Made by a program: the position numbers and the translations under genes
Part shown: one piece after another, positions 4,861 to 31,300 of the stretch
How positions within the stretch are numbered: position 1 is the stretch's first letter
Layout of the letters: the number at the start of each line of letters is the position of its first letter
From: Roseimicrobium sp. ORNL1
GTDB lineage: Bacteria; Verrucomicrobiota; Verrucomicrobiia; Verrucomicrobiales; Verrucomicrobiaceae
Length of the DNA: 64,000 nt
Direction of reading: 5' to 3'
Assembly (NCBI RefSeq): GCF_011044495.1
Contig: NZ_CP049143.1
Location: forward strand, 4,588,001 to 4,652,000
The notes under the pieces: generated by a model
The model's database searches: none
Seen by the model: the letters and a program-made list of their open reading frames with translations, nothing else
Told to the model about the DNA's origin: nothing

Positions 4861-6951
4861 ATGGCATCAGCACGATACAAAATCTTGGAGGAGCTGGGCG
4901 CAGGAGGGGCTGGCGCCGTGTACAAAGCCTACGACACCCAGCTCGACAGATATGTGGCCATCAAGCGGCTGCTCAGCAAAGAAGAGGCTGAAACCGCGGA
5001 CGCGCAGTCCGGGAACATCAAGAAAGAGGCAGCCTCGCTCGCCACGCTCCAGCACCCTAATGTGGTGTCTGTCTTCGATCTCGGAAGCGATGAGCAGGGC
5101 TTCTTCATGGTGATGGAACTGGTGGAAGGCGACACCCTCGGCGACTGGATCACCGCCGCGACCATGAGCCTGCCGGATTTCAATGAACTGGCGACCCAAG
5201 TGCTGGAGGCCCTCGTCTCCGCCCACAGCCAGAGCGTGCTCCACCGCGACCTGAAACCGGAGAACATCAAGATCCGCCGCCTGCCCAGCGGACGCCTCCA
5301 GGTGAAGGTGCTGGACTTCGGTCTCGCCCGCATGTCCTACGGCGCAAAGAAGATGACCGAGGACCAGAGCGGGAACATCCAGGGCTCCATCTACTACATG
5401 TCGCCGGAGCAGCTCCTGCGGAAGCCGCTGGACGGCCGCACGGACCTCTACGCACTGGGATGTGTCTTGTACCAGACCTTGAGCGGACAACGCCCATTCG
5501 AGTCGGATACGGTCCGCGGAGTCATGGATGCGCACCTGCAGCACCTCGTTTATCCGTTGGTGCAGATAGCGCCGAATATTCCCCAGCCCGTGTGTGACTG
5601 GGTGATGTGGCTTTTCAATGCGGATCCCGCCCATCGCCCCGCCAACGCCCAGCAGGCGCTTAATTCCCTGCGAGGGCTGGCAGTGGCCGGCTGGCTTTCT
5701 GAGAGTGCCGAGTCCGGCCATGTCGCCATGGCCGTGCCGGATGAGCCCTACCACCCTCCCGTGGCGGTGCCTCGCATTTCCACCGGCCATGTGCCGACAC
5801 GTCCCCCCACGGGTTCAGTGTCCCAGCGCATCACCGGCACAGTGCCACCACGGAAGCCCACTGGTGGCGTGCCTGCCCGGCGCCCCACGAGTTCCGTTCC
5901 CACACCGACCAGTTCCGTCCACCGCGCCCCCGCCAGAGTGGAGGAGGAGACGGAAGGTGGATTGAACAAGAAGATGATGCTGATCTATGCAGTGGGCGGT
6001 GGCCTGCTGCTGGCGGTCGCCTTGTTCTTCATGCTGCGTGGCGGCAAGTCTGAGCCCGGCAAGCCCGGCAGCCCGACAACCGCCAGCACTCCCGGGACTC
6101 CCGCGAGCATGGAACCACCCACGCGTGCAGCGAATTTCCTCCAGCCCGGCATCTTGCTTCACTTCCGAGCAGGAGAAAAAATGGACGCCTACACCGACCT
6201 CGGCAAACCTGCGGTCGCGGCCAAGCCCGGTGACAAGGTGCTGGCCTGGCATGACATGGCCAATACAGGCGGCGACGGCACCCTCATGGCCATCAATCGC
6301 CTTCAGCAGAACTGTCCGACCTACGTGCAGGAAGTGTCTTCAGCACTGAAGTTCAAGGCGGCCATGCTTCGCTTCACCGGCACGAATGCCATGATCCACT
6401 CCATGAGCAAGGATAACCCCAGTATCAGGGACTATCCGCTCGGTGGCACCCAAAAGGATCCGGGACTCACCATCGTGATGATGGTGCGTCCAAACATCAC
6501 CAACAAGGAGGTCCGTTGCCTGCGCATTCGCAACTCGGAAGACAAGGGACATCTGAGCGTGCGCGCCTATCCCAACAATGAATGGAAGCTGGGCATGAAG
6601 ATCGGCAACACCGTCAAGGAGCAGAAGGTCACGGGACGAAATGTAAAGCAGTTCAACCTGATCGGCGTCTCCTGGAACGCGAACACCGCCAAGATGCTGC
6701 TCTCCATCCGCTCGGAAGACGGCGGAAAGGGACGCGCCGAAGGGGATGCACCGAAGGAAAAAGCGGAAATCTTCAACGAAATCCGCATCGCCGATTACGA
6801 TCAGACGACGCCTGTCGGTGCCGAGGATCTCTTCAACGGAGATGTCCTGGAACTGATGGTGTGGCCCTACGCCATGGGCTGGGAGGATCGCAGCGGCCAG
6901 GAGTTCCGCATCGTACAGGAGTACTTTGTGAAACCGGGACAGAGGTACTGA
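4861..6951 (+). CDS. Transmembrane Ser/Thr protein kinase with concanavalin-like C-terminal domain
   Basis: Of 696 residues, ~5-275 are a complete Hanks-type kinase: glycine loop GAGGAGAVY, VAIK lysine K35, HRDLKPEN with catalytic D130, DFG with D152, and an SPEQ activation-segment end. All catalytic residues are intact. A Pro/Thr-rich linker (~300-360) with recurring TG-VP and TS-VP units follows. A single membrane helix (~373-392, MLIYAVGGGLLLAVALFFML) leads to an outside domain (~415-696) that resembles the LamG/concanavalin-like folds common in Verrucomicrobia and ends in VQEYFVKPGQRY. The topology implies an outside domain that could sense a ligand and an inside kinase. The convergent J-like/Sel1 gene lies 30 bp away. 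Confidence 0.85.
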   Translation: MASARYKILEELGAGGAGAVYKAYDTQLDRYVAIKRLLSKEEAETADAQSGNIKKEAASLATLQHPNVVSVFDLGSDEQGFFMVMELVEGDTLGDWITAATMSLPDFNELATQVLEALVSAHSQSVLHRDLKPENIKIRRLPSGRLQVKVLDFGLARMSYGAKKMTEDQSGNIQGSIYYMSPEQLLRKPLDGRTDLYALGCVLYQTLSGQRPFESDTVRGVMDAHLQHLVYPLVQIAPNIPQPVCDWVMWLFNADPAHRPANAQQALNSLRGLAVAGWLSESAESGHVAMAVPDEPYHPPVAVPRISTGHVPTRPPTGSVSQRITGTVPPRKPTGGVPARRPTSSVPTPTSSVHRAPARVEEETEGGLNKKMMLIYAVGGGLLLAVALFFMLRGGKSEPGKPGSPTTASTPGTPASMEPPTRAANFLQPGILLHFRAGEKMDAYTDLGKPAVAAKPGDKVLAWHDMANTGGDGTLMAINRLQQNCPTYVQEVSSALKFKAAMLRFTGTNAMIHSMSKDNPSIRDYPLGGTQKDPGLTIVMMVRPNITNKEVRCLRIRNSEDKGHLSVRAYPNNEWKLGMKIGNTVKEQKVTGRNVKQFNLIGVSWNANTAKMLLSIRSEDGGKGRAEGDAPKEKAEIFNEIRIADYDQTTPVGAEDLFNGDVLELMVWPYAMGWEDRSGQEFRIVQEYFVKPGQRY

Positions 6952-20437: not shown

Positions 20438-20732
20438 GGCTACTGAGGGTGTCTTGTTGGATGGGCTCAATTTGAATCACTAAGAAGTTGTTGGTGCAGC
20501 GGATGGTAAGCTCGCTCTACCTATGAAACGGGGAGTGAAGGAATCGCGGCCTCATGGACACGGATTTTTTCGATTCGGAATGGCCGGACGGGGTTTGGTT
20601 GGATGTATGCACCCGGAATTTTTCGTCAGGCGCGGCCTGGATGGCATGGACAAGTAGCAAATGGTTGCTTGAGCCGCCCACCCCTGCGACCTACATGCGC
20701 CCGCACATTCGTATCCTTCCACCACCCACCGC

Positions 20733-22505
20733 ATGCGCATCCCTCCCTTTCTCGCCGCCCTGGCTGCCGGTTTCGTACTGGTCTTCGCCTATCCCGGGTG
20801 GAATCTCAGCTGGATCGTGTGGCTGTGGATGCTGCCGCTGCTCTACGCGCTGTGGGGGTGGGACAATAAGGCTTCTGACTCGATCAAAGCAGAGGCCTCA
20901 ACTCCTGCCCCAGATCAAAAATCAAAAATCAAAAATCAAAAATCGCGCAGCCCCGCCTGGCGTGGATTCCGCCTCGCTTACCTGGCCGGGCTCGCCTTTT
21001 TCATCCCGAACCTGAACTGGGTGCGCCACTCCTCCCGTGTCATCAGCGGCGCGAGTGACAACACGTGGATCGGCTGGGGACCGGAACTCATGGGCATCGG
21101 CGCGGTGGTGGGACTCTCCCTCTACATCTCCCTCTACTGGGGCATCTGGGGTGCCTTTGCTGCTACCATTGGGAGGCCACGCATCAGCCCGGAGGGAAAC
21201 ACGACTTCGGGTGACACGGGCAAGCTCTTCAGCGTGTCGTTCGAATCACTGCGCTCCGCATTCCTCTGCGCAGCCGCGTGGGTGGCCTGCGAGTGGCTGC
21301 GCGGGATCGTCTTCACCGGCTTCGGCTGGAATGGACTCGGGGTGGCCCTCTGGAAGATGAAGATCCTGATCCAGGGTGCGGAGTTTGTGGGGGTGACGGG
21401 GCTGTCCTTCCTGCCTGTATTCGTGGCCTGCATCCTGTGGAATACCATCCTGCGCTTCCGCCAGGAGGTGCGCACCTCCCGCGTGCGGCCACATGCGGAC
21501 TTCTTCTGCGCCGTCGCGCTCATGCTGCTGAATGCGGGCTACGGCGCGCGGATGCTCATGGACCAGAAGCCGGCGTCCTCTCCCGAGGTCGTCCCGCTGC
21601 GGATCGCCCTCGTGCAGGGAAACATCGGCCAGCAGGAGAAATGGGATGGCCGGCGGCACATGGAGGTCAGCGAGAATATTTACAACCTCTACGGCAAGCT
21701 CACCGTGCAGGCGGTGATGCAGAACCCGGACGAGAAGCCTCACCTGGTCATCTGGCCGGAGAGCGCCCTGCCCTTTCCATTTCACGATCCAAACCACGTC
21801 GATTTCCTGAACGACATCCTCGGCATCTCCGACTTCTCGCTGCTGACGGGGGCGGACATCTTGATTCCCATGGAGCCCAATTACACGGGTGCTTCGCTCA
21901 TGCGGGGGAACTTCAACAACCACCAACTGCATCGCAAGGTCCACCTCGTCCCCTTTGGCGAGTACCTGCCGCTGCGGAATTTCCCCGGCATGAACGCGCT
22001 CCTCGGTGACGTGATCATGGGTGACTTCGCCAGTGGTCCCTCCACCGAGCCACTGAAGCTGGAGGAGCCCGCCGGTGTGCAACTCATCCCGCTCATCTGC
22101 TTCGAGGACACGGTGGGCCGCCTCGCACGGAAGTTCGTGCGCGAGGCGCCACAGCTTCTCGTGAACATGACAAACGACGGTTGGTTCCTCCACAGCGAAG
22201 AAAATGAGCAGCACCTCTCCAACGCCATCTTCCGCAGCATCGAACTCCGACGTCCCATGGTCCGCGCCTGCAATACCGGCGTGACTTGCTTCATTGATGA
22301 CAAAGGTCGCATCCCACCCGGCGCGATGATGTGGAATGAGAAGGACAGCTTCTTTTACAAGGGCGTGCTGAAGCAGACAGTGAACCTAGAGAAGAATCCA
22401 CCCATGACCGTGTATGCGAGGTTTGGAGATGCGTTCTCCATCGGCATGCTGGGGATCATGGGCGTGGCGATTGGGGTGGCAGTGGTGAGGCGGAGGAAGA
22501 AATAA
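20733..22505 (+). CDS. lnt: Apolipoprotein N-acyltransferase
   Basis: The 590-residue product adds the third acyl chain to the N-terminal Cys of lipoproteins in the inner membrane. It has N-terminal membrane helices and a carbon-nitrogen hydrolase domain with the catalytic triad E343 (VIWPESALPF), K402 (HRKVHLVPFGEYLP) and C456 (LICFEDTVGR), equivalent to E. coli E267, K335 and C387, plus the NMTNDGWF motif and a last membrane helix. The length exceeds the usual ~510. Part of the excess is a Lys/Gln/Ser insertion near residues 50-72 in the loop after the first two helices, encoded partly by a heptamer tandem repeat. The gene is monocistronic here, and a 211-bp structured repeat follows its stop. 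Confidence 0.92.
   Translation: MRIPPFLAALAAGFVLVFAYPGWNLSWIVWLWMLPLLYALWGWDNKASDSIKAEASTPAPDQKSKIKNQKSRSPAWRGFRLAYLAGLAFFIPNLNWVRHSSRVISGASDNTWIGWGPELMGIGAVVGLSLYISLYWGIWGAFAATIGRPRISPEGNTTSGDTGKLFSVSFESLRSAFLCAAAWVACEWLRGIVFTGFGWNGLGVALWKMKILIQGAEFVGVTGLSFLPVFVACILWNTILRFRQEVRTSRVRPHADFFCAVALMLLNAGYGARMLMDQKPASSPEVVPLRIALVQGNIGQQEKWDGRRHMEVSENIYNLYGKLTVQAVMQNPDEKPHLVIWPESALPFPFHDPNHVDFLNDILGISDFSLLTGADILIPMEPNYTGASLMRGNFNNHQLHRKVHLVPFGEYLPLRNFPGMNALLGDVIMGDFASGPSTEPLKLEEPAGVQLIPLICFEDTVGRLARKFVREAPQLLVNMTNDGWFLHSEENEQHLSNAIFRSIELRRPMVRACNTGVTCFIDDKGRIPPGAMMWNEKDSFFYKGVLKQTVNLEKNPPMTVYARFGDAFSIGMLGIMGVAIGVAVVRRRKK
20914..20944 (+). repeat. Heptamer tandem repeat inside lnt
   Basis: Four full copies plus three bases of the 7-mer ATCAAAA lie in frame within lnt and encode a KSKIKNQKS-type stretch. 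The unit length is not a multiple of three, so gain or loss of one unit would shift the frame. Confidence 0.85.
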
Positions 22506-22525
22506 GTAGGGAGATACACACGAAT

Positions 22526-22736
22526 GATCCAGACGCTGTGACGCGTAGCGTCCTTAGACTGCGCGCAGCCCTGCTGCCGCTTTCCAGAGTCCGCAGCCTG
22601 CTGCGGCGATGGTGGCATTCGCTTGCAGGGTGATGTGTCCAGAAGAGCTTGGCGACTTCGTCGCGGTGAAGCGTGCAGCAGGCTGCACTTTAGGAAAGCG
22701 GCAGCAGGGCTGCGCGCAGTCCAAGGCCTTCGGCAC
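22526..22736 (+). repeat. 211-bp structured repeat, copy 1
   Basis: It begins 20 bp after the lnt stop. A 30-bp stem pairs 22556-22585 with 22693-22722 (29 of 30 positions). Inside it a 12-bp stem pairs 22593-22604 with 22675-22686, and a small hairpin GCGAC-TTC-GTCGC lies in the apical part. The second copy, at 30497-30707, has the same length and about 17 differences by hand count. Weaker similarity continues ~35 bp further in both. The rest of the gap to 22922 holds only the short repeat at 22864-22903. Confidence 0.85.
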
Positions 22737-22863
22737 CAATTCCACATCCCTATCCTAACGTTCACCCCTCTTGCGAGACCATTCGGCACGTCCTTGGGCT
22801 GGTGCACCTATTGCGCGCTATTCCTTTGAAGTCTCATCAAGAGCCGCCCTCTCTCCAAAAACC

Positions 22864-22903
22864 CTCCGCGTTTCTGTGTCTCCGTGTCTCTGTGTTGAAT
22901 CCC
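22864..22903 (+). repeat. GTGTCTCCGTGTCTCTGTGTTGAATCCC dispersed repeat, single copy
   Basis: About 40 bp of CT/GT-rich sequence ending in CTGTGTTGAATCCC. It closely matches both arms of the inverted pair at 63440-63481 and 63549-63590, so the family has at least three members in this window. Confidence 0.7.
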
Positions 22904-22922
22904 ATGCACACACCCACCGCCC

Positions 22923-24374
22923 TCACAGCACCGGCATAAACAGCCGCGCAAAACCATCACGCAACCGCAGGAGCAACCCTGCATTGCGCAGTTCTTCGCG
23001 TGTCACAGGCTGGCAATCCTCCAGGCTCTTCACGAAGATGGCGTTCAGTTGACGGGCGAGGATGTCATCGAAGCACGCGACATTGAACTCAAAGTTCAAC
23101 CGCAAGCTGCGAGGATCCCAGTTGGTGCTGCCCACCAGGGACCACAGGCCATCGACGGTCATGAACTTGCTGTGATCGAAATGCCCGTCCGCTTCCAGGA
23201 TATGCACGCCGCGCTCAAGCATCTGCGGGTACAGGGTGCGCCCGGCCCAGCGGACGAGGGGGATGTTGTTGTTCTTCGGCGTGATGATGGTCACATCCAC
23301 CCCCCGCAAGGCCGCGGAGTTCAGTGCCCAGAGAATCGGCGCATCCGGTAGAAAGTAGGGCGTCATCACGCGAATCTCGCGCTTCGCGGCGCCGATGGCG
23401 GCAAAGATGACCTTCGGCATCAACTCGAAATCTTCATCCGGTCCATCCGGCACGCCGATGATGCCGACTTCACCGGCAGGCTCCAGTTCGGGGTACCAGA
23501 TCTCCCCTTTCAGCACCTCCCCGCAGCAAAAGGCCCAGTCCTCTGCGAACACGCGTTGGAGCTGGCGCACAGCAGGCCCCTCCACCTGGAAGTGGAGATC
23601 GATGACGGGATGCTTCGGATTCTGCGAAAGCATGTTTCCATCCCGGATGTTCATGCCGCCGGTGAAACCGGTGACGCCATCCACCACCATGACCTTGCGG
23701 TGGTTGCGCATGTTCATGCTGAACACCCGGAAGAAAAAGTGGCTGTGCATGAAGCTCTGGGCATTGATGCCGCGCCGCTTCAACGTGTGAATGATGGGCG
23801 GCCAGGAGTACATGGTGCCCATGTTGTCCACCAGCACGCGCACCTCCACGCCACGGTTCTTCGCCTTCTCCAGTTCATTGACGAACTCCATCCCGACACC
23901 CTTGGCCTCAAAGATGTAGCTGCAGAGGCTGATGCTGCGCCGGGCATTCCGGATGGCGGTGACCATGGCGAACATCGCCTCCTCACTCCGCAGCGGGATC
24001 ATGTGGTTTCCCACTGAGAAATTGTATCGCGAGAGTTTGCCGATGGCATCGGCGAGTTCCCCCAGCATCTTGAGTTCAGGCACTTCCTTTTCCGGGTTCA
24101 CCGGGCAGGCCTCCAGCACCGCCTGGCGTTCCACATCCGTCATTGCGCGGTACTTCTGCCCACGCCGCTGGATGCGGTTGATGCCAAACATTGCGTAGAA
24201 GATGGCGCCCAACAGCGGCACGAAGGCAATGATCACCGCCCAGAACGCCGCAATGCGACCATCCCGCTGACGCAGCAATACATGGCTCACCGCAAAGCCC
24301 ACGACACAAATATCGAGAATCAGCAGCAACCAGTGCCACACGGGGAAGACAGCCTTGTACAATTCAACGAACAT
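22923..24374 (-). CDS. cls: Cardiolipin synthase (two HKD motifs)
   Basis: From the ATG at 24374 the product has 483 residues, the normal length for bacterial Cls; an upstream GTG would add 39 unlike residues. Two N-terminal membrane helices (WHWLLLILDICVVGFAVSHV and AAFWAVIIAFVPLLGAIFYA) are followed by two phospholipase D domains with H225-R-K (HRKVMVVDG, then GFTGGMNIRDG) and H401-S-K (HSKFMTVDG, then GSTNWDPRS). The enzyme joins two phosphatidylglycerol molecules into cardiolipin at the inner membrane. The gene is convergent with lnt. Confidence 0.9.
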   Translation of the reverse strand: MFVELYKAVFPVWHWLLLILDICVVGFAVSHVLLRQRDGRIAAFWAVIIAFVPLLGAIFYAMFGINRIQRRGQKYRAMTDVERQAVLEACPVNPEKEVPELKMLGELADAIGKLSRYNFSVGNHMIPLRSEEAMFAMVTAIRNARRSISLCSYIFEAKGVGMEFVNELEKAKNRGVEVRVLVDNMGTMYSWPPIIHTLKRRGINAQSFMHSHFFFRVFSMNMRNHRKVMVVDGVTGFTGGMNIRDGNMLSQNPKHPVIDLHFQVEGPAVRQLQRVFAEDWAFCCGEVLKGEIWYPELEPAGEVGIIGVPDGPDEDFELMPKVIFAAIGAAKREIRVMTPYFLPDAPILWALNSAALRGVDVTIITPKNNNIPLVRWAGRTLYPQMLERGVHILEADGHFDHSKFMTVDGLWSLVGSTNWDPRSLRLNFEFNVACFDDILARQLNAIFVKSLEDCQPVTREELRNAGLLLRLRDGFARLFMPVL

Positions 24375-24527
24375 GCAGATGGAGCGAGAATGGAGAAAGC
24401 GCGGCAATGATGTCCCACGATGACGAGGACGCAACGAGAGAAGGAATCGAGTCAGGGGTGATGGTGCATTCAGGGAACCACTAATAGACACTAACGGACA
24501 CTAATTTAGGAGAAGGCTTCGTCGGAC

Positions 24528-24662
24528 GGACCGCTAATGGGCGCTAATCTTCGCTAAAAGAATGAGGGCTATGGGTACGGTTCGCCATCGCAGGCTCCGA
24601 CACATCACAGCACGTCTCCCATTCACCATCCATTAGCGAACATTAGCGCCTATTAGCGGTCC
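24528..24662. repeat. Imperfect inverted repeat with GCTAAT units
   Basis: Left arm 24528-24556 (GGACCGCTAATGGGCGCTAA at its start) pairs with right arm 24631-24662, which ends in GCGCCTATTAGCGGTCC, with a few mismatches. The loop is ~75 bp. It looks like a REP-type intergenic element. Confidence 0.65.
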
Positions 24663-24718
24663 CCATTTCCGCACCACCCCTCGCCACCCCAATCCATCTC
24701 AGCGCCTACCCTTTGGCG

Positions 24719-24744
24719 CCCTTTGCGTTCTTTTACGGCCATTC
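24719..24744 (-). repeat. Dispersed GAATGGCCG-AAAAGAACGCA repeat, copy B
   Basis: Read on the minus strand it is GAATGGCCGTAAAAGAACGC followed by AAAGGG, matching copy A at 1826-1860 except for a missing 9-bp GAGAACGCA unit and one base. Confidence 0.6.
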
Positions 24745-24780
24745 TTCATCCCGCCATTCACCTTTCCCTCCCCCTCTACT

Positions 24781-24801
24781 GCTTCGCTGCTTTGCGTTTC
24801 A
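24781..24801 (+). repeat. GCTTCGCTGCTTTGCGTTTC repeat, copy 1 of 3
   Basis: An identical ~20-mer occurs at 29666-29686 (same strand), and its first 19 bases at 49893-49911 (opposite strand). All three are intergenic. Confidence 0.65.
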
Positions 24802-24876
24802 ACTTTCCCGCCCTGAAATCCCTTTGCGCGTCACGTTCCCAGCGGTTAACGCTCCCACCCCCTTTGCTCGCTCCCC

Positions 24877-25677
24877 ATGAACCGCATCGACCAACGTTTC
24901 GCTGACCTCCGCGCCTCTGGAAAGAAGGCCTTCGTGGCCTATATCTGTGCAGGAGATCCGAACCTGGACACCATGCGCGACATCGTGCTCACACTGGAAA
25001 AGTGCGGGGTGGACATCATCGAGCTGGGCCTGCCCTTCAGCGACCCGCTGGCGGACGGCATCGTGAACCAGATGGCCGCCGACCGCGCCCTGCGCGCCGG
25101 GGCCTCAACGCCGAAGGTCATCGCGGCCATCAAGAAGCTCCGCACGGAAACACAAATCCCGATCGTGCTCTTCACCTACCTGAATCCGGTGTACACCTAC
25201 GGGTTCGAGGCCTTCCACCGCGACGCGGCCGCCGCCGGAGCGGATGGCGTCCTGATTCTGGACCTGCCGCCGGACGAGGCGTCTGAGAATGCCGAACTCG
25301 TGGGGGGCGAAGCGCTGAAGCGCATCCGCCTCATCGCGCCCACCACCCCGGCGGAGCGCATCCCCCTGCTCACCGCCCAGGCAGAGGGTTTCATTTATTA
25401 CGTTTCCCGCGAGGGGGTGACCGGCGCGCAGACCTCGCTGGCGACCGGCATCGAGGCCCAGGTCGCCCGCATCAAGGCCACCACGGAAACGCCTGTGGCC
25501 GTGGGCTTTGGCATTTCCACCCCAGAGCAGGCCGGGGCCGTGGCCGGCATGGCGGACGGCGTCGTGGTGGGCAGCGCCATCGTAAAGCTCATTGAACAAC
25601 ACGGCTCCGACAACGCCCTCACGGACAGGCTCGCCGCCTTCGTGAAACCTCTTGTCGATGCCGTGAAGTCCGTCTAG
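24877..25677 (+). CDS. trpA: Tryptophan synthase alpha chain
   Basis: A 266-residue TIM barrel of normal length. It cleaves indole-3-glycerol phosphate to indole and glyceraldehyde 3-phosphate. Catalytic E49 (IIELGLPFSDPLADG) and D60 fall at the same numbers as in the E. coli enzyme, and the signature AYICAGDPNLDTM and the phosphate loop (GFGISTPEQ, then DGVVVGSAIV) are present. The beta chain trpB is not adjacent in this window. dapF starts 18 bp after the stop, so the two are probably co-transcribed, joining tryptophan synthesis with the lysine/diaminopimelate genes that follow. Confidence 0.95.
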   Translation: MNRIDQRFADLRASGKKAFVAYICAGDPNLDTMRDIVLTLEKCGVDIIELGLPFSDPLADGIVNQMAADRALRAGASTPKVIAAIKKLRTETQIPIVLFTYLNPVYTYGFEAFHRDAAAAGADGVLILDLPPDEASENAELVGGEALKRIRLIAPTTPAERIPLLTAQAEGFIYYVSREGVTGAQTSLATGIEAQVARIKATTETPVAVGFGISTPEQAGAVAGMADGVVVGSAIVKLIEQHGSDNALTDRLAAFVKPLVDAVKSV

Positions 25678-25695
25678 CTTCTCCGCCCCTTTCCC

Positions 25696-26511
25696 ATGGC
25701 CACCACGCTCAAATTCTGGAAGATGAACGGCGCGGGCAATGACTTTGTCATGCTCGACAACCGCACTCAGTCCGTGCAAATCGACAACGCTACGATCGCC
25801 CGCCTGTGCGACCGGCATCGTGGCGTGGGTGCGGATGGCCTCCTGCTGGTGGAGCCCCCGACGGATGGCGGCGACTTCAAGATGCGCTACCACAACGCGG
25901 ACGGCGGCGAGGCCGAGATGTGCGGCAATGGCGCGCGCTGCTTCGCCCGCTATGTGAACCGTCTGCATGACGACAAGCTCGGCGGCCTGAAGTTTGAAAC
26001 GCTCGCGGGCATGATCTCCGCCGACTACCTCGGCGACCAGGTGCGCATCAACATGAGTCCGCCGCACAGCCTGAAGCTGAACCAGACCCTCCCCGTGGAA
26101 GGCGCGGAACTCACCGTCCACAGCGTGAATACCGGCGTGCCTCACGCGGTCGTCTTCGTGCAGGACCTCGAGAATACCAATGTGCGCGGCCTCGGCGCCG
26201 GCCTGCGATACCACACCGCCTTTGCCCCGAAGGGCACCAATGCGAATTTTGTGAAGGTCACCGGACCGAACAGCATCTCCATCCGCACGTATGAACGCGG
26301 CGTGGAGGATGAAACACTGGCCTGCGGCACTGGCATGGTGGCGTGCGCGCTGATTGCCCATGAGCTGCACGGCTTCACTTCGCCGGTGTCCGTGCTCGTG
26401 CGCGGCGGCGACACCTTGCAAATCGGGTTCGAGAAGACGGCGGATGGCTACCAGAACGTGACGCTTCACGGACCGGCGGACTTCGTCTTCGAAGGCACCG
26501 TGGAGGTTTAA
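25696..26511 (+). CDS. dapF: Diaminopimelate epimerase
   Basis: A 271-residue enzyme converting LL- to meso-diaminopimelate for lysine and peptidoglycan. The two catalytic cysteines are visible: C76 in NADGGEAEMCGNGARC and C210 in DETLACGTGMVACAL. The N-terminus FWKMNGAGNDFVMLDNR is the usual family start. It is followed 10 bp later by a small zinc-ribbon gene and then by dapA and dapB, forming a diaminopimelate-centred group. Confidence 0.95.
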   Translation: MATTLKFWKMNGAGNDFVMLDNRTQSVQIDNATIARLCDRHRGVGADGLLLVEPPTDGGDFKMRYHNADGGEAEMCGNGARCFARYVNRLHDDKLGGLKFETLAGMISADYLGDQVRINMSPPHSLKLNQTLPVEGAELTVHSVNTGVPHAVVFVQDLENTNVRGLGAGLRYHTAFAPKGTNANFVKVTGPNSISIRTYERGVEDETLACGTGMVACALIAHELHGFTSPVSVLVRGGDTLQIGFEKTADGYQNVTLHGPADFVFEGTVEV

Positions 26512-26521
26512 TTTTCGCGTC

Positions 26522-26791
26522 ATGACCAGCAGGCAATCCCTTAAGAAGGCGCACCGCATGGCGTGGCCGATTGTAATCGTGGGAATCGTGCTGATGGCAT
26601 CGGCTGAGATGAAATGGCTGCAAGGCGTGGGCATAGCCCTGCTTTTCGCTGGCATTCTCTGGGGAAAGTTCGCGGGCAAATGTGTGCATTGCCTGAAGCC
26701 TGCGGGCGCCTGGATGCACAGCGCCAGCCCGGGCGTGCAGTACTGCCCCTGCTGCGGCAAATCCCTCGATGCCGAGCACTCGGCTGCATGA
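26522..26791 (+). CDS. Small membrane protein with zinc-ribbon-like CxxC pair
   Basis: An 89-residue protein with two hydrophobic helices (MAWPIVIVGIVLMASAEM and GVGIALLFAGILWGKFAG) and then a four-Cys module: CVHC and, 20 residues on, CPCC. This should bind one zinc. It starts 10 bp after dapF and ends 76 bp before dapA, so it belongs to the same transcript by position. Family and role are unknown to me. Confidence 0.7.
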   Translation: MTSRQSLKKAHRMAWPIVIVGIVLMASAEMKWLQGVGIALLFAGILWGKFAGKCVHCLKPAGAWMHSASPGVQYCPCCGKSLDAEHSAA

Positions 26792-26867
26792 GCTGCTTCC
26801 AGCGCGCTTGCGCTGACGTATTCCCTCTCTCAAATAGACTTTCGTCAAAACACGTAAACTACACCCC

Positions 26868-27746
26868 ATGTTCGCAGGTACCCATACCGCCATCATCACC
26901 CCTTTCCGCAACGGCCGACTGGATGAGGATGCGCTGAAAAAAGTCATCGACTACCAGTTCGATGGCGGCGTGCAGGGCGTGGTGCCGTGTGGCACGACCG
27001 GCGAGTCCCCCACCCTGGATTACGATGAGCATGACCGCGTGATTCAGCTCACCGTGGGCATCACCCGTGGTCGCGGCCTGGTGATTGCCGGTACCGGCAG
27101 CAACAGCACCCGTGAGGCGATTGAGATGACGCAGGAAGCCGAGGCCGCTGGCGCGAACGCCTCCCTGCAGGTCGCTCCGTATTACAACAAGCCCACACAA
27201 GAAGGTCTCTTCCGCCACTTCCGCGACATCGCGAAGAACACGAGCCTGCCCATCATGCTCTACAGCATCCCCGGACGCTGCGGCATTGAGATCGGCATCG
27301 AGACCGTGGTGCGCCTCGCCGAGGAGTGCCCGAACATCCGCGCCATCAAGGAAGCGGGTGGCAATGCCGACCGCGTGAGCGTGCTCAAGCAACTCCTGCC
27401 GGAGAATTTCGAAATCCTCTCCGGCGATGACTCCCTCACGCTTCCTTTCATGAGCGTGGGCGGCAAGGGCATCGTGAGCGTGGCGGGCAATCTGATTCCG
27501 AAGGAGATGAGCACCATGGTGCAGCACGCACTGAAGGGCGAGTGGGCCGAGGCCCAGGCTATCCATGCGAAGTTCAACCCGCTCTTCAGCATGTTCCTGA
27601 AGCTTGCGACGAACCCCATCCCCATCAAGACCGCCATGGCTCTCAAGGGCCTCTGCGACGCCGAACTCCGCCTCCCCATGTGCGAGATGAGCGACGCCCA
27701 GGTAGCCGAGCTGAAGGCCACGATGGTGAAGCTGGGAATCCTCTGA
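26868..27746 (+). CDS. dapA: 4-Hydroxy-tetrahydrodipicolinate synthase
   Basis: A 292-residue (beta/alpha)8 lyase of normal length that condenses pyruvate with aspartate semialdehyde. Schiff-base K161 lies in RAIKEAGGN, and the active-site tyrosine Y132 is in MLYSIPGRCGI. The GTTGESPTL loop and YYNKPTQEGLFRHF are also present. It is the first of the two early lysine-branch genes. A 154-bp gap with inverted repeats separates it from dapB. Confidence 0.95.
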   Translation: MFAGTHTAIITPFRNGRLDEDALKKVIDYQFDGGVQGVVPCGTTGESPTLDYDEHDRVIQLTVGITRGRGLVIAGTGSNSTREAIEMTQEAEAAGANASLQVAPYYNKPTQEGLFRHFRDIAKNTSLPIMLYSIPGRCGIEIGIETVVRLAEECPNIRAIKEAGGNADRVSVLKQLLPENFEILSGDDSLTLPFMSVGGKGIVSVAGNLIPKEMSTMVQHALKGEWAEAQAIHAKFNPLFSMFLKLATNPIPIKTAMALKGLCDAELRLPMCEMSDAQVAELKATMVKLGIL

Positions 27747-27750
27747 AGGA

Positions 27751-27882
27751 GTTGAGCGATGGTTTGCAGTAGTTGAGCTGTTGTTGAGCGATGGTTTGTA
27801 CTGAACTCAGCTCCCTCGCTCACGCCTTATCCTCTTCACCAACCACTGCTCAACCATCGCAAACCACTGCTCAACAACCGCC
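27751..27882. repeat. Inverted repeats built from TTGAGCGATGGTTTG units
   Basis: Between dapA and dapB, two copies of TTGAGCGATGGTTTG (27752 and 27783) face inverted relatives at 27840-27882 (for example CAACCATCGCAAACCACTGC). Units vary slightly (GCGATGG versus GCAGTGG). It begins 4 bp after the dapA stop and could fold as an RNA, but has no T-run of a terminator. Confidence 0.65.
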
Positions 27883-27900
27883 AACTTTCCCACCCTTCTT

Positions 27901-28638
27901 ATGTCTCTTCGTATTCTCGTCACCGGCGCCAAGGGCCGCATGGGCCAGGCCGTCATCCGCGCTACGGAAGCGGATCCTGACACCGTGGTCGGCGCTGCTG
28001 TCGACGTGGGTGACAATCTCGATGAAGCGCTCGCCCAGTGCGATGCGGTCATTGACTTCACCTCACACCACTTCAGCAATGAACTCGTGGCTGCTTGTGT
28101 GAAGCACAAGAAGGCCCTCATCATGGGCACCACCGGCCATACGGAGGAAGAACGCAACACCATCCGCGAAGCCGCCAAGACCATCCCCGTCGTGTTCGCC
28201 GCGAACTTCAGCGTGGGTGTGAATACCCTCTTCTGGCTCACCCGCCAGGCTGCGCGCATCCTCGGCGAGCCCTTCGACCTTGAGGTGATTGAAATGCATC
28301 ACCGCATGAAGACGGACTCCCCCAGCGGCACTGCCCGCCGCCTGGTGGAAATCCTCTGCGAGGAATCCGGCGTGAACTATGACAAGGACACGCGCCACGG
28401 ACGCTTCGGTGACGTGGGCGCGCGCACGAAGAAGGAAATCGGCGTACACGCCCTCCGCGGCGGTGATGTCGTGGGTGACCACACGGTCGTCTTCGCAAAC
28501 ATCGGCGAGCGTGTCGAGCTCACCCACAAGGCCAGCAGCCGCGACACCTTCGCCGGTGGCAGCGTCCGCGCCGCCAAGTGGCTCGCCGACAAGAGCGCCG
28601 GCATTTATGACATGCAGGATGTTCTGGGACTGAAGTGA
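27901..28638 (+). CDS. dapB: 4-Hydroxy-tetrahydrodipicolinate reductase
   Basis: A 245-residue NAD(P)H-dependent reductase. The nucleotide loop VTGAKGRMGQAV is at residues ~6-17. The C-terminal domain signature EMHHRMKTDSPSGTA carries the catalytic His and the Lys of the substrate site. Length is slightly short of the E. coli enzyme (273), mostly in the N-terminal domain, which is common in this family. It takes the dapA product to tetrahydrodipicolinate. Confidence 0.95.
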   Translation: MSLRILVTGAKGRMGQAVIRATEADPDTVVGAAVDVGDNLDEALAQCDAVIDFTSHHFSNELVAACVKHKKALIMGTTGHTEEERNTIREAAKTIPVVFAANFSVGVNTLFWLTRQAARILGEPFDLEVIEMHHRMKTDSPSGTARRLVEILCEESGVNYDKDTRHGRFGDVGARTKKEIGVHALRGGDVVGDHTVVFANIGERVELTHKASSRDTFAGGSVRAAKWLADKSAGIYDMQDVLGLK

Positions 28639-28681
28639 CCGAGAGAAAGTAGTCCGCCGGGCTCCGGCGGAGTGCATGGGA

Positions 28682-28773
28682 AATGCAAAATGAGAAATGA
28701 AAGGTGAAAAATGAAAAGTGCCTGAGGTGCCCGTCATTTTGCACTTTTCATTTTTCACTTCTCATTTTGCATT
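28682..28773. repeat. Imperfect inverted repeat, AATGCAAAATGAGAA units
   Basis: Left arm 28682-28721 and right arm 28741-28773 are complementary except for a 7-base extra piece in the left arm. The arms are AT-rich (AATGAAAAGTGC and GCACTTTTCATT at the inner ends). It lies between dapB and folK. Confidence 0.75.
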
Positions 28774-28810
28774 CTCTCGTACCGGCTGAAGTCTCGGCGG
28801 ACTCCCTTCC

Positions 28811-29320
28811 ATGATCTACGGCATCGCCCTCGGCTCGAATCTCGGTGACCGCCTGCACCACCTGCAGGAGGCCGTGCGCCAGCTCCGCACGGTGCATCCC
28901 ACCCTGATACTCCGCGGTGCCGCCGCAGTGTATGAGACGGACCCGGTGGATTGCCCGGAGGGTTCGCAGTCGTTCTTGAATACCGTGGTGGAAGTGGAGT
29001 GCGCCTTGGAACCACTGGAACTCCTTCGCGAGATGCGGGCTGTTGAAGTGAAGCTCGGCCGCCCTGCCGAGCACGGCCACCACGCCCCACGCACCGTGGA
29101 CCTGGACATGCTCTACGCGGACGATACGGTGATGGAGCAACCGGCACTCATCCTCCCGCATCCAAGGATGACTCAGCGCCGCTTTGTGCTGCAACCGCTG
29201 GCGGAAATCCGGCCGAAACTCGTGCTACCAAACGACTCACGAAGCATCTCTCAGCATCTGGAGACCCTGCAAAGTCCCGAGCCCCCCTTGCGCATCCTAC
29301 AGCGCGACTGGCTTCGATAG
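28811..29320 (+). CDS. folK: 2-Amino-4-hydroxy-6-hydroxymethyldihydropteridine pyrophosphokinase
   Basis: A 169-residue HPPK, which transfers pyrophosphate from ATP to the pterin in folate synthesis. Family signatures are GIALGSNLGDR at the start, YETDPV, SFLNTVVEVE and the HPPK motif region PRTVDLDMLYAD with its two Mg-binding Asp residues, then ILPHPRMTQRRFVLQPL. Length is normal. It follows dapB on the same strand after a repeat-filled gap of 172 bp. Confidence 0.95.
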   Translation: MIYGIALGSNLGDRLHHLQEAVRQLRTVHPTLILRGAAAVYETDPVDCPEGSQSFLNTVVEVECALEPLELLREMRAVEVKLGRPAEHGHHAPRTVDLDMLYADDTVMEQPALILPHPRMTQRRFVLQPLAEIRPKLVLPNDSRSISQHLETLQSPEPPLRILQRDWLR

Positions 29321-29398
29321 CTGAGGTGAAGCCTCTGGCGACGGTGATTTCAAAGTGACGCCGAAGGGCCAGCCCACCCACCGCATTGCGGCAGGCCC

Positions 29399-29546
29399 AA
29401 GGAGTGGGAACGCCTCGTTCCCATGGTGACAGAGTGCTCGATCGGCAACTACGAAGGCACACCGTTCGCGCCGCAAAGGTGTCCGGTGGGACGCAACACC
29501 GGAAGAAGTGGCAACCTCTGATGGGAACGAGGCGTTCCCACTCCTT
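29399..29546. repeat. Perfect 26-bp inverted repeat pair (GGGAACG hairpin units)
   Basis: 29399-29424 and 29521-29546 are exact reverse complements. Each arm is itself a hairpin (GGGAACG-CCT-CGTTCCC or its complement). This two-unit inverted layout is that of REP doublets. The remainder of the 406-bp folK-panB gap holds only the repeat at 29666. Confidence 0.85.
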
Positions 29547-29665
29547 GATTAGCCGCAGCGCCTCTCATGACCTATTACCCCTTTCGCTCCGTGACCGTGC
29601 ACGTCAGGCCGGAGGCCCAACGACCACTGTCAGGCGGGACGCCTAACCTCCGTAGCATCTCTGCT

Positions 29666-29686
29666 GCTTCGCTGCTTTGCGTTTCA
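29666..29686 (+). repeat. GCTTCGCTGCTTTGCGTTTC repeat, copy 2 of 3
   Basis: Same ~20-mer as at 24781-24801. It lies 41 bp upstream of the panB start codon. Confidence 0.65.
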
Positions 29687-29726
29687 CCTATTTGCGCCCC
29701 GGTTACGTACCATGTAAGTAACCCCT

Positions 29727-30491
29727 GTGCACGCCCTCACCCAGCAACTCCGCGACCGCAAAGCCTCCGGCGAGAAGCTCGCCGTGCTCACCGCCTACGA
29801 CTACCCCACCGCCCGCCTCTTCGATGAAGCTGGGGTGGATCTCATCCTCGTGGGTGATTCCCTCGGCATGGTGATGCTGGGCCTGCCTGACACCACGGGC
29901 GTGACCATGAACATGATGCTCCACCACGCGGCTGCCGTCCGTCGCGGTGTGAAAAAGGCCACCGTCATCGTGGACCTCCCCGCGAACACCTATGGCAATC
30001 CCGATCACGCCGTTCACAACGCCGAGCGTCTGGTGGAAGCCGGGGCGGATGCGGTGAAGCTCGAAGGCGGCGTGGACATGATCGAGTCCGTGCGCGCCAT
30101 CACAAAGGCGGGAATCGGATATGTGGGGCACATCGGCATGCTTCCGCAGAGTGTGTTGAAGGAAGGCGGCTACAAGAAGAAGGGCCGTACCGAGGATGGA
30201 GCCAGTCGCCTGGTGGAGGATGCGATTGCACTGGAGGAAGCCGGGGCCTCCGCCATCGTGCTGGAGAGCATCGTCCCGGATGTCGCCGCGCGCATCAGTG
30301 CCAGCATCAAGATTCCGACCATTGGCATTGGTGCGGGCAGTGCGTGTGACGGGCAGGTGCTGGTGTATCACGACCTCGTTGGCCTGTTCCCTTGGTTTGT
30401 TCCCCCGTTTGCCGTGCAGGAGGCGAATCTGGCCATGGAGATCACGCGGTCGGCGAGGAAGTTTATCGAGAGGGTGAAGGGGGAACATTGA
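29727..30491 (+). CDS. panB: 3-Methyl-2-oxobutanoate hydroxymethyltransferase
   Basis: A 254-residue ketopantoate hydroxymethyltransferase of pantothenate synthesis. The start is a GTG at 29727: the only nearby upstream ATG is directly followed by a stop, and the GTG gives the usual N-terminus with LRDRKASGEKLAVLTAYDYP. Metal-site residues lie in LVGDSLGMV, IVDLPANTYG and KLEGG. The barrel ends with PTIGIGAGSACDGQVLVYHDL. No clear Shine-Dalgarno precedes the GTG. A 211-bp structured repeat starts 5 bp after the stop. Confidence 0.93.
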   Translation: MHALTQQLRDRKASGEKLAVLTAYDYPTARLFDEAGVDLILVGDSLGMVMLGLPDTTGVTMNMMLHHAAAVRRGVKKATVIVDLPANTYGNPDHAVHNAERLVEAGADAVKLEGGVDMIESVRAITKAGIGYVGHIGMLPQSVLKEGGYKKKGRTEDGASRLVEDAIALEEAGASAIVLESIVPDVAARISASIKIPTIGIGAGSACDGQVLVYHDLVGLFPWFVPPFAVQEANLAMEITRSARKFIERVKGEH

Positions 30492-30496
30492 CGACA

Positions 30497-30707
30497 GATC
30501 CGAACGCTGTGACGCGCGGCGTCCTTGGACTGCGTGCAGCCCTGCTGCCGCTTTCCAGAGTCCGCAGCCTGCTGCGGCGATAGTGACATTCACTCGTAGT
30601 GTGATGCCTCCAGAAGAGCTTGGCGACTTCGTCGCGGTGTAGCGTGCAGCAGGCTGCACTTGAGGAAAGCGGCAGCAGGGCTGCACGCAGTCCAAGGCCT
30701 TCGGCAC
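30497..30707 (+). repeat. 211-bp structured repeat, copy 2
   Basis: Same element as 22526-22736, in the same orientation and again directly behind a plus-strand gene. The outer stem is perfect here: 30527-30556 pairs with 30664-30693 over 30 bp. At one position the left arm has T where copy 1 has C, and the partner base in the right arm has A instead of G, so pairing is kept. Nothing else is seen up to 30805. Confidence 0.85.
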
Positions 30708-30805
30708 TACTTCTCAATCATTAACCTGACGTTCACGCGCCCCACCTACTGGACATGACACCGCTTTAAATGGAGCCCAATTAAAAGGAGACGCGTAGTG
30801 CTCCC

Positions 30806-31300
30806 TCACCCCCTCGCCCTTGTCCTAGCCGCCTTCTTTGCGGCAGCAGAGCGCTTCGCTGGCCCCTTCGTTCTCGCAGCTTTCTTGGCCGCCGCAGACC
30901 GGTCCTTCGCAGTGCGCTTCTTTGCCGCTTGCTTCGTATGTCGCGACAACGCAGCAGAACTTGCAGCGCTATGACCTTCCCGCTCCAACGCCCGTCTGCT
31001 CGCTCTCGCTCGCTTCGGTGAGGGCTTCACCGGCCCATGTTCGGCCCGCTTAAGTTCCCGCTTCGCTTGCTTCCTCACCTTATCAGAGGCCTTGCCCTTC
31101 TCTGGTGGTGGCAGCTTCACGCCAGCACGACGTGCCATCGAGAGCCCGATCGCAATCGCCTGCTTCGTGGAGCGCGCACCGTGTTTGCCCTCGCGGATGT
31201 CATCGATGACTTCGCGTACAAATTCTCCAGCTTGCGTGGATGGAGCTTTGCCTTCCTTTTTGTCACGGCGGGCTCGCTTGATGGTGCTTTGCTTGGGCAT
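30806..31300 (-). CDS. DUF6496-type protein with histone-H1-like basic tail
   Basis: The start at 31300 is set by a strong Shine-Dalgarno (AGGAGG, 7 bases before the ATG). The 164-residue product has a conserved N-terminal half (AGEFVREVIDDIREGKHG, then STKQAIAIGLSMARRAGVKLP), which matches DUF6496. The tail of ~70 residues is rich in Lys, Ala and Arg, with repeated SAAAKKAART units like eukaryotic H1 and bacterial HctB-type proteins. DNA binding and nucleoid association are likely but inferred. It is divergent from the ADP-ribosylglycohydrolase-like gene. Confidence 0.7.
   Translation of the reverse strand: MPKQSTIKRARRDKKEGKAPSTQAGEFVREVIDDIREGKHGARSTKQAIAIGLSMARRAGVKLPPPEKGKASDKVRKQAKRELKRAEHGPVKPSPKRARASRRALEREGHSAASSAALSRHTKQAAKKRTAKDRSAAAKKAARTKGPAKRSAAAKKAARTRARG

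Follow-up and report, generated by a model that had tools for sequence, protein, structure and literature searches.

A REPIN-like palindromic element of Roseimicrobium sp. ORNL1, probably mobilized by a RAYT, and a candidate class of tagged repeats in Verrucomicrobiota

Results and Discussion

The 211-bp palindrome at positions 22526–22736 of the window is very probably a non-autonomous REPIN-like element, which comprises two inverted arms with two small hairpins each and would be mobilized in trans by a REP-associated tyrosine transposase (RAYT; HUH/Y1 transposase) encoded elsewhere in the genome. The window is the whole stretch of DNA analyzed here, namely 64,000 nucleotides corresponding to positions 4588001–4652000 of the 7.96-Mb single-contig genome of Roseimicrobium sp. 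ORNL1. The original prediction had named a non-autonomous mobile element as one possible identity, and this part is supported by the presence of approximately 100 copies in the genome and of element arms on both sides of all 19 distinct RAYTs of one clade.

Architecture of the element

The prediction from the window alone was right in the coordinates of the element and its second copy of equal length (Table 1) and in the strong palindrome, the outer arms of which (22552–22585 and 22693–22726) span 34 nucleotides and are 97% complementary. The sole long frame over the element is a 150-aa ORF on the minus strand (22355–22807), which spans the element plus the end of lnt. Folded as single-stranded DNA, the element reached −76.7 kcal/mol, as compared with −47 ± 3.5 kcal/mol for shuffled sequences (z of −8.6), and none of the 200 shuffles was as low. 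The 211-bp extent is correct in its coordinates but too narrow for the conserved sequence; over 35 oriented copies, column information stayed above background from ~50 bp left of the first arm to ~50 bp right of the last. The left edge of the conserved zone touches the stop codon of lnt (22503–22505) in copy 1, and the stop codon of panB (30489–30491) sits in the corresponding edge of copy 2. The ends are of several types (X, Y, and Z) and are combined differently from copy to copy. No left outer repeat matching that on the right was seen by eye in the alignment for copy 1. Each of the two outer hairpins carries a bulged base, 22564 on the left, where the bulge is present in the DNA fold, and 22714 on the right.

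Table 1. Features of the element in the window and of the flanking genes.
Feature	Position	Strand	Basis or remark
Full conserved extent, copy 1 (approximate)	22501..22769	+	211 bp plus ~25 bp left and ~33 bp right; column information, 35 copies
Left end hairpin, type X, GACGCT...AGCGTC	22532..22552	+	DNA fold; aligned copies
Outer-left REP-like hairpin GCG(Y)GCAG-CCCTG-CTGCCGC, feet TTrGACT / TTTCC	22561..22580	+	Pairs kept in 33–34 of 34 copies
Inner-left hairpin CCGCAG-CCTG-CTGCGG, compensatory changes among copies	22591..22606	+	Counts at columns 48/60 and 47/61
Middle hairpin GCGAC-TTC-GTCGC	22652..22664	+	98.8% of cells paired (helix 2)
Inner-right hairpin GTGCAG-CAGG-CTGCAC	22673..22688	+	97.9% of cells paired (helix 3)
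Outer-right hairpin, inverse of outer-left	22698..22717	+	Pairs kept in 33–34 of 34 copies
Right end hairpin, type Y, GCC-TTC-GGC	22726..22734	+	DNA fold; type Y/Z ends in aligned copies
Degenerate right outer inverted repeat; inward reading CCCGCnnnGCGCATGnnCGTCAGGTTAAG in better copies	22750..22769	+	By eye in alignment
Second window copy	30497..30707	+	17 differences from copy 1, 0 indels
lnt, apolipoprotein N-acyltransferase; 3' end abuts element	20733..22505	+	LNT_N, CN_hydrolase
Phospholipase D / cardiolipin-synthase-like protein; 3' end faces element	22923..24491	-	PLDc_2

Covariation resides in a local hairpin

Between the two window copies, a C-to-T change at 22564 is accompanied by a G-to-A change at 22714, and this pair had been taken as evidence that selection or the copying mechanism preserves the long palindrome. 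The double change is real, but it does not generalize. The alignment A1 consists of 34 of the 35 copies (the best-scoring 30 of this genome plus 5 of genome G001) and leans to query-like copies because it was built from the best-scoring ones; L030 was left out because both of its ends are of one type. The two positions correspond to columns 19 and 174 of A1, where the 34 copies show CA in 10, CG in 8, TG in 8, TA in 6, AG in 1, and a gap in 1. Thus, the two columns vary independently of each other, and additional copies breaking the stem at random, which the original prediction itself had named as counter-evidence, occur at the very pair cited. Neither of the two measures over the long stem supports its preservation. 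Across the 49 pairs, 98.3% of the cells are paired against 98.2% in shuffled alignments, and 109 of 500 shuffles reached the observed value; the covariation score is 0.034 against 0.032, with 34 of 500 shuffles reaching it. One other long-stem pair, 9/184, leans to covariation (UA in 27, CG in 4, and others in 3), and the covariation term of RNAalifold on A1 was −0.17.

In the local hairpins, 11 double-change cells were observed against 2.8 in shuffled alignments, none of 500 being as high, and all of them fall in the inner-left hairpin. Columns 48/60 of this hairpin are AU in 24, GC in 9, and GU in 1 of the copies, and columns 47/61 are CG in 31, UA in 2, and CA in 1; the number of local-hairpin pairs with a double change (two) is itself unremarkable, being equaled in 84 of 500 shuffles. 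Read locally, the outer arm forms a stem of 7 bp (GCG-GCAG / CTGC-CGC) from which a single base bulges; this base is column 19 on the left and column 174 on the right, and the bulge is seen when an isolated arm is folded as DNA. These columns are the most variable of their arms, with entropies of 1.15 (next highest, 0.38) and 1.0 (next highest, 0.21), respectively, because they are unpaired in the conserved form, the local hairpin. Altogether, the real covariation sits in a local hairpin and not in the long stem. As a caution, when only two copies are compared, one apparently pair-preserving change may consist of two independent changes at bulged positions.

Copy number and the RAYT of this genome

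The arm motif GAAAGCGGCAGCAG, with at most one mismatch, was found 103 times on the forward strand and 105 times on the reverse strand of this genome, as compared with 3 and 2 for the reversed control. In one genus mate the corresponding numbers are 62 and 60, and reversed controls across both genomes gave 0–3 matches. As the motif usually occurs twice per element, we infer approximately 100 elements here and approximately 60 in the genus mate. Paired inverted arms are mostly 135–140 bp apart from start to start, with few other spacings, and single arms occur as well. With the element as the query, 40 places aligned over 188–219 bp, 40 of the 133 first-look candidates having been scored; the window copy matched itself with no difference, and the other places differ from it by 7–16%.

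Of the 17 Y1_Tnp genes in the genome, the RAYT gene at G000:C1:836568-837194 lies between two element copies of opposite orientation. Its product passes the cut-off of the NCBIfam REP_Tyr_transpos model (81.5 against 80 bits), stands at that of Pfam Y1_Tnp (22.7–23.4 against 23), and possesses the NHYH (HUH) motif and the tyrosine motif YVHQN. All 16 members of the RAYT set A2 match the REP_Tyr_transpos model at E ≤ 0.001, and for a profile of 16 RAYT relatives the best solved relative was TnpA_REP (4er8; E of 7.6e-11). A paralog at 4897195–4897803 (82%) and the gene of the genus mate are likewise flanked by the element, and no element arms were found at the other 16 Y1 loci of this genome.

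On these grounds, we propose that the mobilizing enzyme would be the RAYT at 836568–837194 together with its paralog. It would bind the single-stranded hairpins of the arms (feet TTGGAsT and TTTC, stem GCGGCAG / CTGCCGC, loop CCTG), cleave at these feet, and have a single-stranded copy inserted elsewhere, and the copies would survive mostly just behind genes. Binding, cutting, insertion, and the single-strand route, and with them mobilization overall, are predicted here from sequence features. Comparison of the window from 20700 to 31300 with G001 revealed syntenic genes and intergenic DNA that could not be aligned; G001 lacks the element at both window loci, and no clean empty site was found.

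The element accompanies one RAYT clade

Among the loci examined, element arms lie within 600 bp on both sides of 19 out of 19 distinct RAYTs of one clade and of none of 32 other Y1 transposases. Two of the 19 are from Planctomycetota. In the tree of 51 proteins, the 19 element-flanked RAYTs occupied one side of a branch with support values of 76/89, which are moderate, and the tree program warned of long branches among the other sequences. The flanked/unflanked split amounts to a single change on the tree, which none of 500 shuffles reproduced. The tree excludes L071 and L112 as short, L111, L121, L147, and L177 as duplicates, and L084 and L085 because they are further records of genes already included; L121 (Brevifollis gellanilyticus) repeats a RAYT already in the set, and the Prosthecobacter contig L147 has its RAYT at the coordinates (6070–6633) that it has in G024:C232.

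Some RAYT match was found in 57 of the 68 genomes of the family. Of the family loci examined, all 13 with 61–100% identity are flanked on both sides by element-related arms, which are absent from the 17 with 44–51% identity. The close matches outside the examined loci are G027:C8 and the pieces in G011:C289, the latter with arm motifs on both sides. At least five arm motifs were present in 13 of the 14 family genomes with a RAYT of the clade (in one of the 14, G011, the gene is present only as two pieces) against 7 of the 54 without it. A one-sided rank test of motif count against RAYT gave a p of 1e-6, or 8e-6 without the own genus, and these values are only a guide because the genomes are related and many are incomplete. 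The exceptions are the seven genomes with at least five motifs and no detected RAYT of the clade, and the RAYT-bearing genome G013 with a single motif.

Outside the family, the 26-base unit GGACTGCGGCAGCCTGCTGCCGCTTT was found in at least 119 stretches in a contig scan, and the titles among the matches listed belong to Verrucomicrobiota and Planctomycetota. Ten of the at least 119 stretches hold a related RAYT, four of which repeat genes of the family. One of the ten, the planctomycete locus L112, has a broken RAYT with arms on one side only. The exact unit is also present in L092, L095, L135, and L148, which are MAG contigs labeled Candidatus Kuenenia stuttgartiensis; these represent either a transfer, or mislabeled or mixed bins.

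Alternatively, the RAYT may no longer move the elements, the copies being relics or the RAYT performing a host job on them. We regard this as unlikely but the most serious of the alternatives. The divergence of 7–16% among the scored places means that a recent burst is not obvious, and possible reasons for the retention of stable RAYT genes in low copy number are considered in PMC6006769. Against this reading, 10 of the 13 close RAYTs of the family have no stop in the matched stretch, and the pairing of RAYT and repeat is kept over two phyla. Mobilization by the RAYT remains our preferred reading. As a side observation, the RAYT genes at L056, L060, L062, L066, and L071 contain one stop inside the matched stretch, which may be near the C-terminal end.

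A probable wider tagged class in Verrucomicrobiota

Sister RAYTs (44–51% identity) are accompanied by hairpins with other stems and identical feet, TGGAsT-[GC..GC]-TTT, for instance, TGGAGT-GCTCCAG..CTGGAGC-TTT and TGGAGT-GCGCCGG..CCGGCGC-TTT. A unit finder that required GGAsT, then a body whose stem starts with G and has five or more pairs, and then TTT detected units on both sides of 12 of the 19 clade loci and 12 of the 17 sister loci, and on any side of 16 and 15, respectively (the set left out L084, L085, L111, L112, L121, L147, and L177). At the 16 other Y1 loci of the own genome, units were detected on both sides of none and on any side of one. Reversed sequences gave 0 of 36 (0 of 17 for the sister loci) and 1 of 16. 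The finder, which is strict, detected no unit in the window (two in the reversed window) and none beside the RAYT loci L054, L063, and L083; the arms of the window, L054, and L083 carry an extra bulged base.

When 288 genomes from the phylum were scanned for TGGASTGCN{10,16}GCTTTC, the present genome gave 144 matches, followed by 65, 63, 31, 25, 15, 15, 14, and 13 in others, with controls there of 0–2. The distribution is patchy: any match was found in 141 of the 288 genomes, most with only one or two, which is like the control. For the own genus, the pattern is no test of the stem. Over the phylum as a whole the stems covary: among 100 distinct strings, taken among the pattern matches listed, 48 extend the stem by at least three pairs, as compared with 2.9 (maximum 10) in 1000 shuffles, and there are 17 different four-base stem ends among the 100 strings, 14 of which are fully paired.

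A RAYT profile was searched in 36 genomes, hand-picked as 18 with high and 18 with zero counts of the pattern; 11 of the former and one of the latter contained a strong match (E below 1e-50). In G272, the lone zero-count genome with a strong match, the bodies of the units exceed the length permitted by the pattern. The remaining 7 high-count genomes have no strong match, and G283, G076, G244, and G331 are cases of many units with none. Beside RAYTs of other families of the phylum, units were found on at least one side at 13 of the 14 loci with strong or middling matches (both sides at 7) and at none of the 16 with weak matches; in this count L278, L285, and L305 offered one side only, being on short contigs, and margins of 1500 bases were assumed for the 16 weak-match loci.

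The unit in the window appears to be a member of a broader class within Verrucomicrobiota, in which the feet TGGAsT and TTT are constant and the stems differ between RAYT lineages. We lean, with some reserve, towards a third large class of REPs beside the GTAG and CGTC classes: its members would be recognized by RAYTs and would bear unpaired feet, TGGAsT and TTT, on the two sides, the stem being a lineage-specific code matched to the RAYT; the class would be spread over Verrucomicrobiota, RAYT and repeat would have been transferred as a pair between Verrucomicrobiota and Planctomycetota, and layers would result from nesting of the repeats in the middle of other palindromes. Work on how RAYTs select their REPs has dealt with GTAG systems. 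The RAYT lineages described here, the feet of which stay constant while the stems vary, provide natural pairs for asking which protein region recognizes the foot, the stem, the loop, and the bulge.

Relation to known repeat systems

Among the closest known systems are REPINs and REPtrons with TnpA_REP of the GTAG type in Pseudomonas, Escherichia coli, and Stenotrophomonas, in which dispersed hairpins, often in inverted pairs, lie near gene 3' ends and flank an HUH tyrosine transposase that occurs in low copy number and belongs to the same NCBIfam family. The stems of the E. coli REPs also have a bulge, which is needed for activity (PMC8266576). Unlike GTAG-type repeats, the present arms have two hairpins each and the constant feet TGGAsT (5') and TTT (3'), and their stems vary by RAYT lineage. 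Because the unit finder sought GGAsT/TTT feet only, the flanks were also read by eye for GT[AG]G; neither GTAG nor GTGG was seen 5' of the arm hairpins, the units having GGACT or GGAGT 5' and TTT 3'.

TIRtrons (TIRYT; Di Nocera 2013, PMC3733652) resemble the present system in the RAYT-type gene between long inverted repeats, some of which are self-complementary and some of which belong to moderately abundant families. Nevertheless, the TIRtrons share the motif GGGGWSAS according to the accessible text of that paper, whereas the present repeats have TGGAsT and multi-hairpin REP-like units in approximately 100 copies. The Class 3 TnpA_Y1 transposases (Quentin 2018, PMC6006769), found mainly in Planctomycetes, Acidobacteria, and Proteobacteria, likewise have a non-GTAG foot, 5' CnGA, and their copy number can be high; as described in the accessible part of that paper, they bear NHVH and Y----Q, unlike the NHYH and YVHQN[AP] of the present enzymes, and the feet differ too. 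The CGTC-tagged REPs are short tagged hairpins, mostly in inverted pairs, as here, but no transposase association is reported for them in the accessible passages of PMC3733652, whereas the RAYT association is the strongest feature of the present repeats, which have no CGTC foot. Opitutus terrae (Verrucomicrobia) is rich in GTAG repeats (PMC3733652), so GTAG REPs also exist in the phylum. We found no description of TGGAsT/TTT feet in the accessible part of the openly licensed literature. Thus, the novelty lies in the class and the tag, not in the kind.

Outer inverted repeats and layers

The outer repeat CCCGCnnnGCGCATGnnCGTCAGGTTAAG had 15 and 17 matches, 32 in all, and the control had none. 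A minority of the copies have it at both ends: three are 305–306 bp long as bounded by the 21-base repeat, and further paired copies with the outer part of it are 319, 376, and 377 bp. The same outer repeats bound other interiors, namely L251 (G000:C1:2675670-2676106; 437 bp), L272 (2759796–2760207; 412 bp), and L257 (2492542–2492731; 190 bp), and the 412-bp element L272 lies inside a further 20-bp inverted repeat.

Since the outer repeats are common to unrelated interiors, another enzyme may have moved some of the copies, and a DDE element with outer-repeat ends is possible for part of the family. For the family as a whole, a MITE moved by a DDE transposase reading CCCGCnnnGCGCATGnnCGTCAGGTTAAG, with the REP-like core as a passenger, could account for the excess of matches over the control, the copies with both ends, and the repeat shared between families with different interiors. 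We nonetheless consider it improbable. With up to 6 mismatches in 21 positions, 7 of the 35 copies have the outer repeat at their X side and 23 have it at their Y side, whereas the core is kept, and it was not visible in the RAYT-flanking copies looked at. No direct repeat of at least 5 bp was found beside five of the six paired outer repeats, and the sixth showed one doubtful 5-bp match. Among the 32 matches there was no inward-facing pair 0.5–5 kb apart, and thus no autonomous copy showed. A search of the examined loci for an outer-repeat element without the core yielded only 27-bp repeat ends. Layers of this kind would arise if one palindrome inserted into the center of another, and REP dimers inserted in longer palindromes are on record (PMC3733652).

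Placement behind genes

The ORF-based gene context of the 35 copies was convergent in 15, tandem in 17, and divergent in 3, ORFs overlapping a copy by more than 60 bp being set aside. REPs favor gene 3' ends and often supply stop codons (PMC3733652). A side effect of the element on mRNA ends is plausible, and such an effect in the 3'-UTR is compatible with mobility. A scan of 22300–23000 for promoters and terminators found nothing above chance. The placement and the strong fold would suit a structured RNA, an option that the original prediction had raised; it would be a 3'-UTR stabilizer, an attenuator, or a small RNA spread by selection on its function, with RAYT flanking as a secondary matter. 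This is highly improbable in view of the Rfam search of 22300–23000, in which no family reached the cut-off (best, 48.1 bits against the 168 needed), the near absence of covariation in the long stem, and the co-occurrence of the arms with RAYT in other genomes and two phyla. The Rfam candidates were four weak matches to microRNA precursor models, none at threshold.

Other repeats

Many of the 16 other Y1_Tnp loci of this genome (L036–L051) are bordered by their own inverted or direct repeats, which differ by locus; several repeat-transposase systems thus seem to exist in parallel in this genome. In the window, another inverted repeat (24528–24557 / 24633–24662) with 30-nucleotide arms, 93% complementary and bearing TTAGCG motifs, lies between the phospholipase D gene and the gene at 24877; no likeness to the 211-bp element was seen. 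Between the genes at 28811 and 29727, stretches of 27–52 bp within 29371–29547 match several places in the G001 region on both strands, and they are perhaps a further small repeat family.
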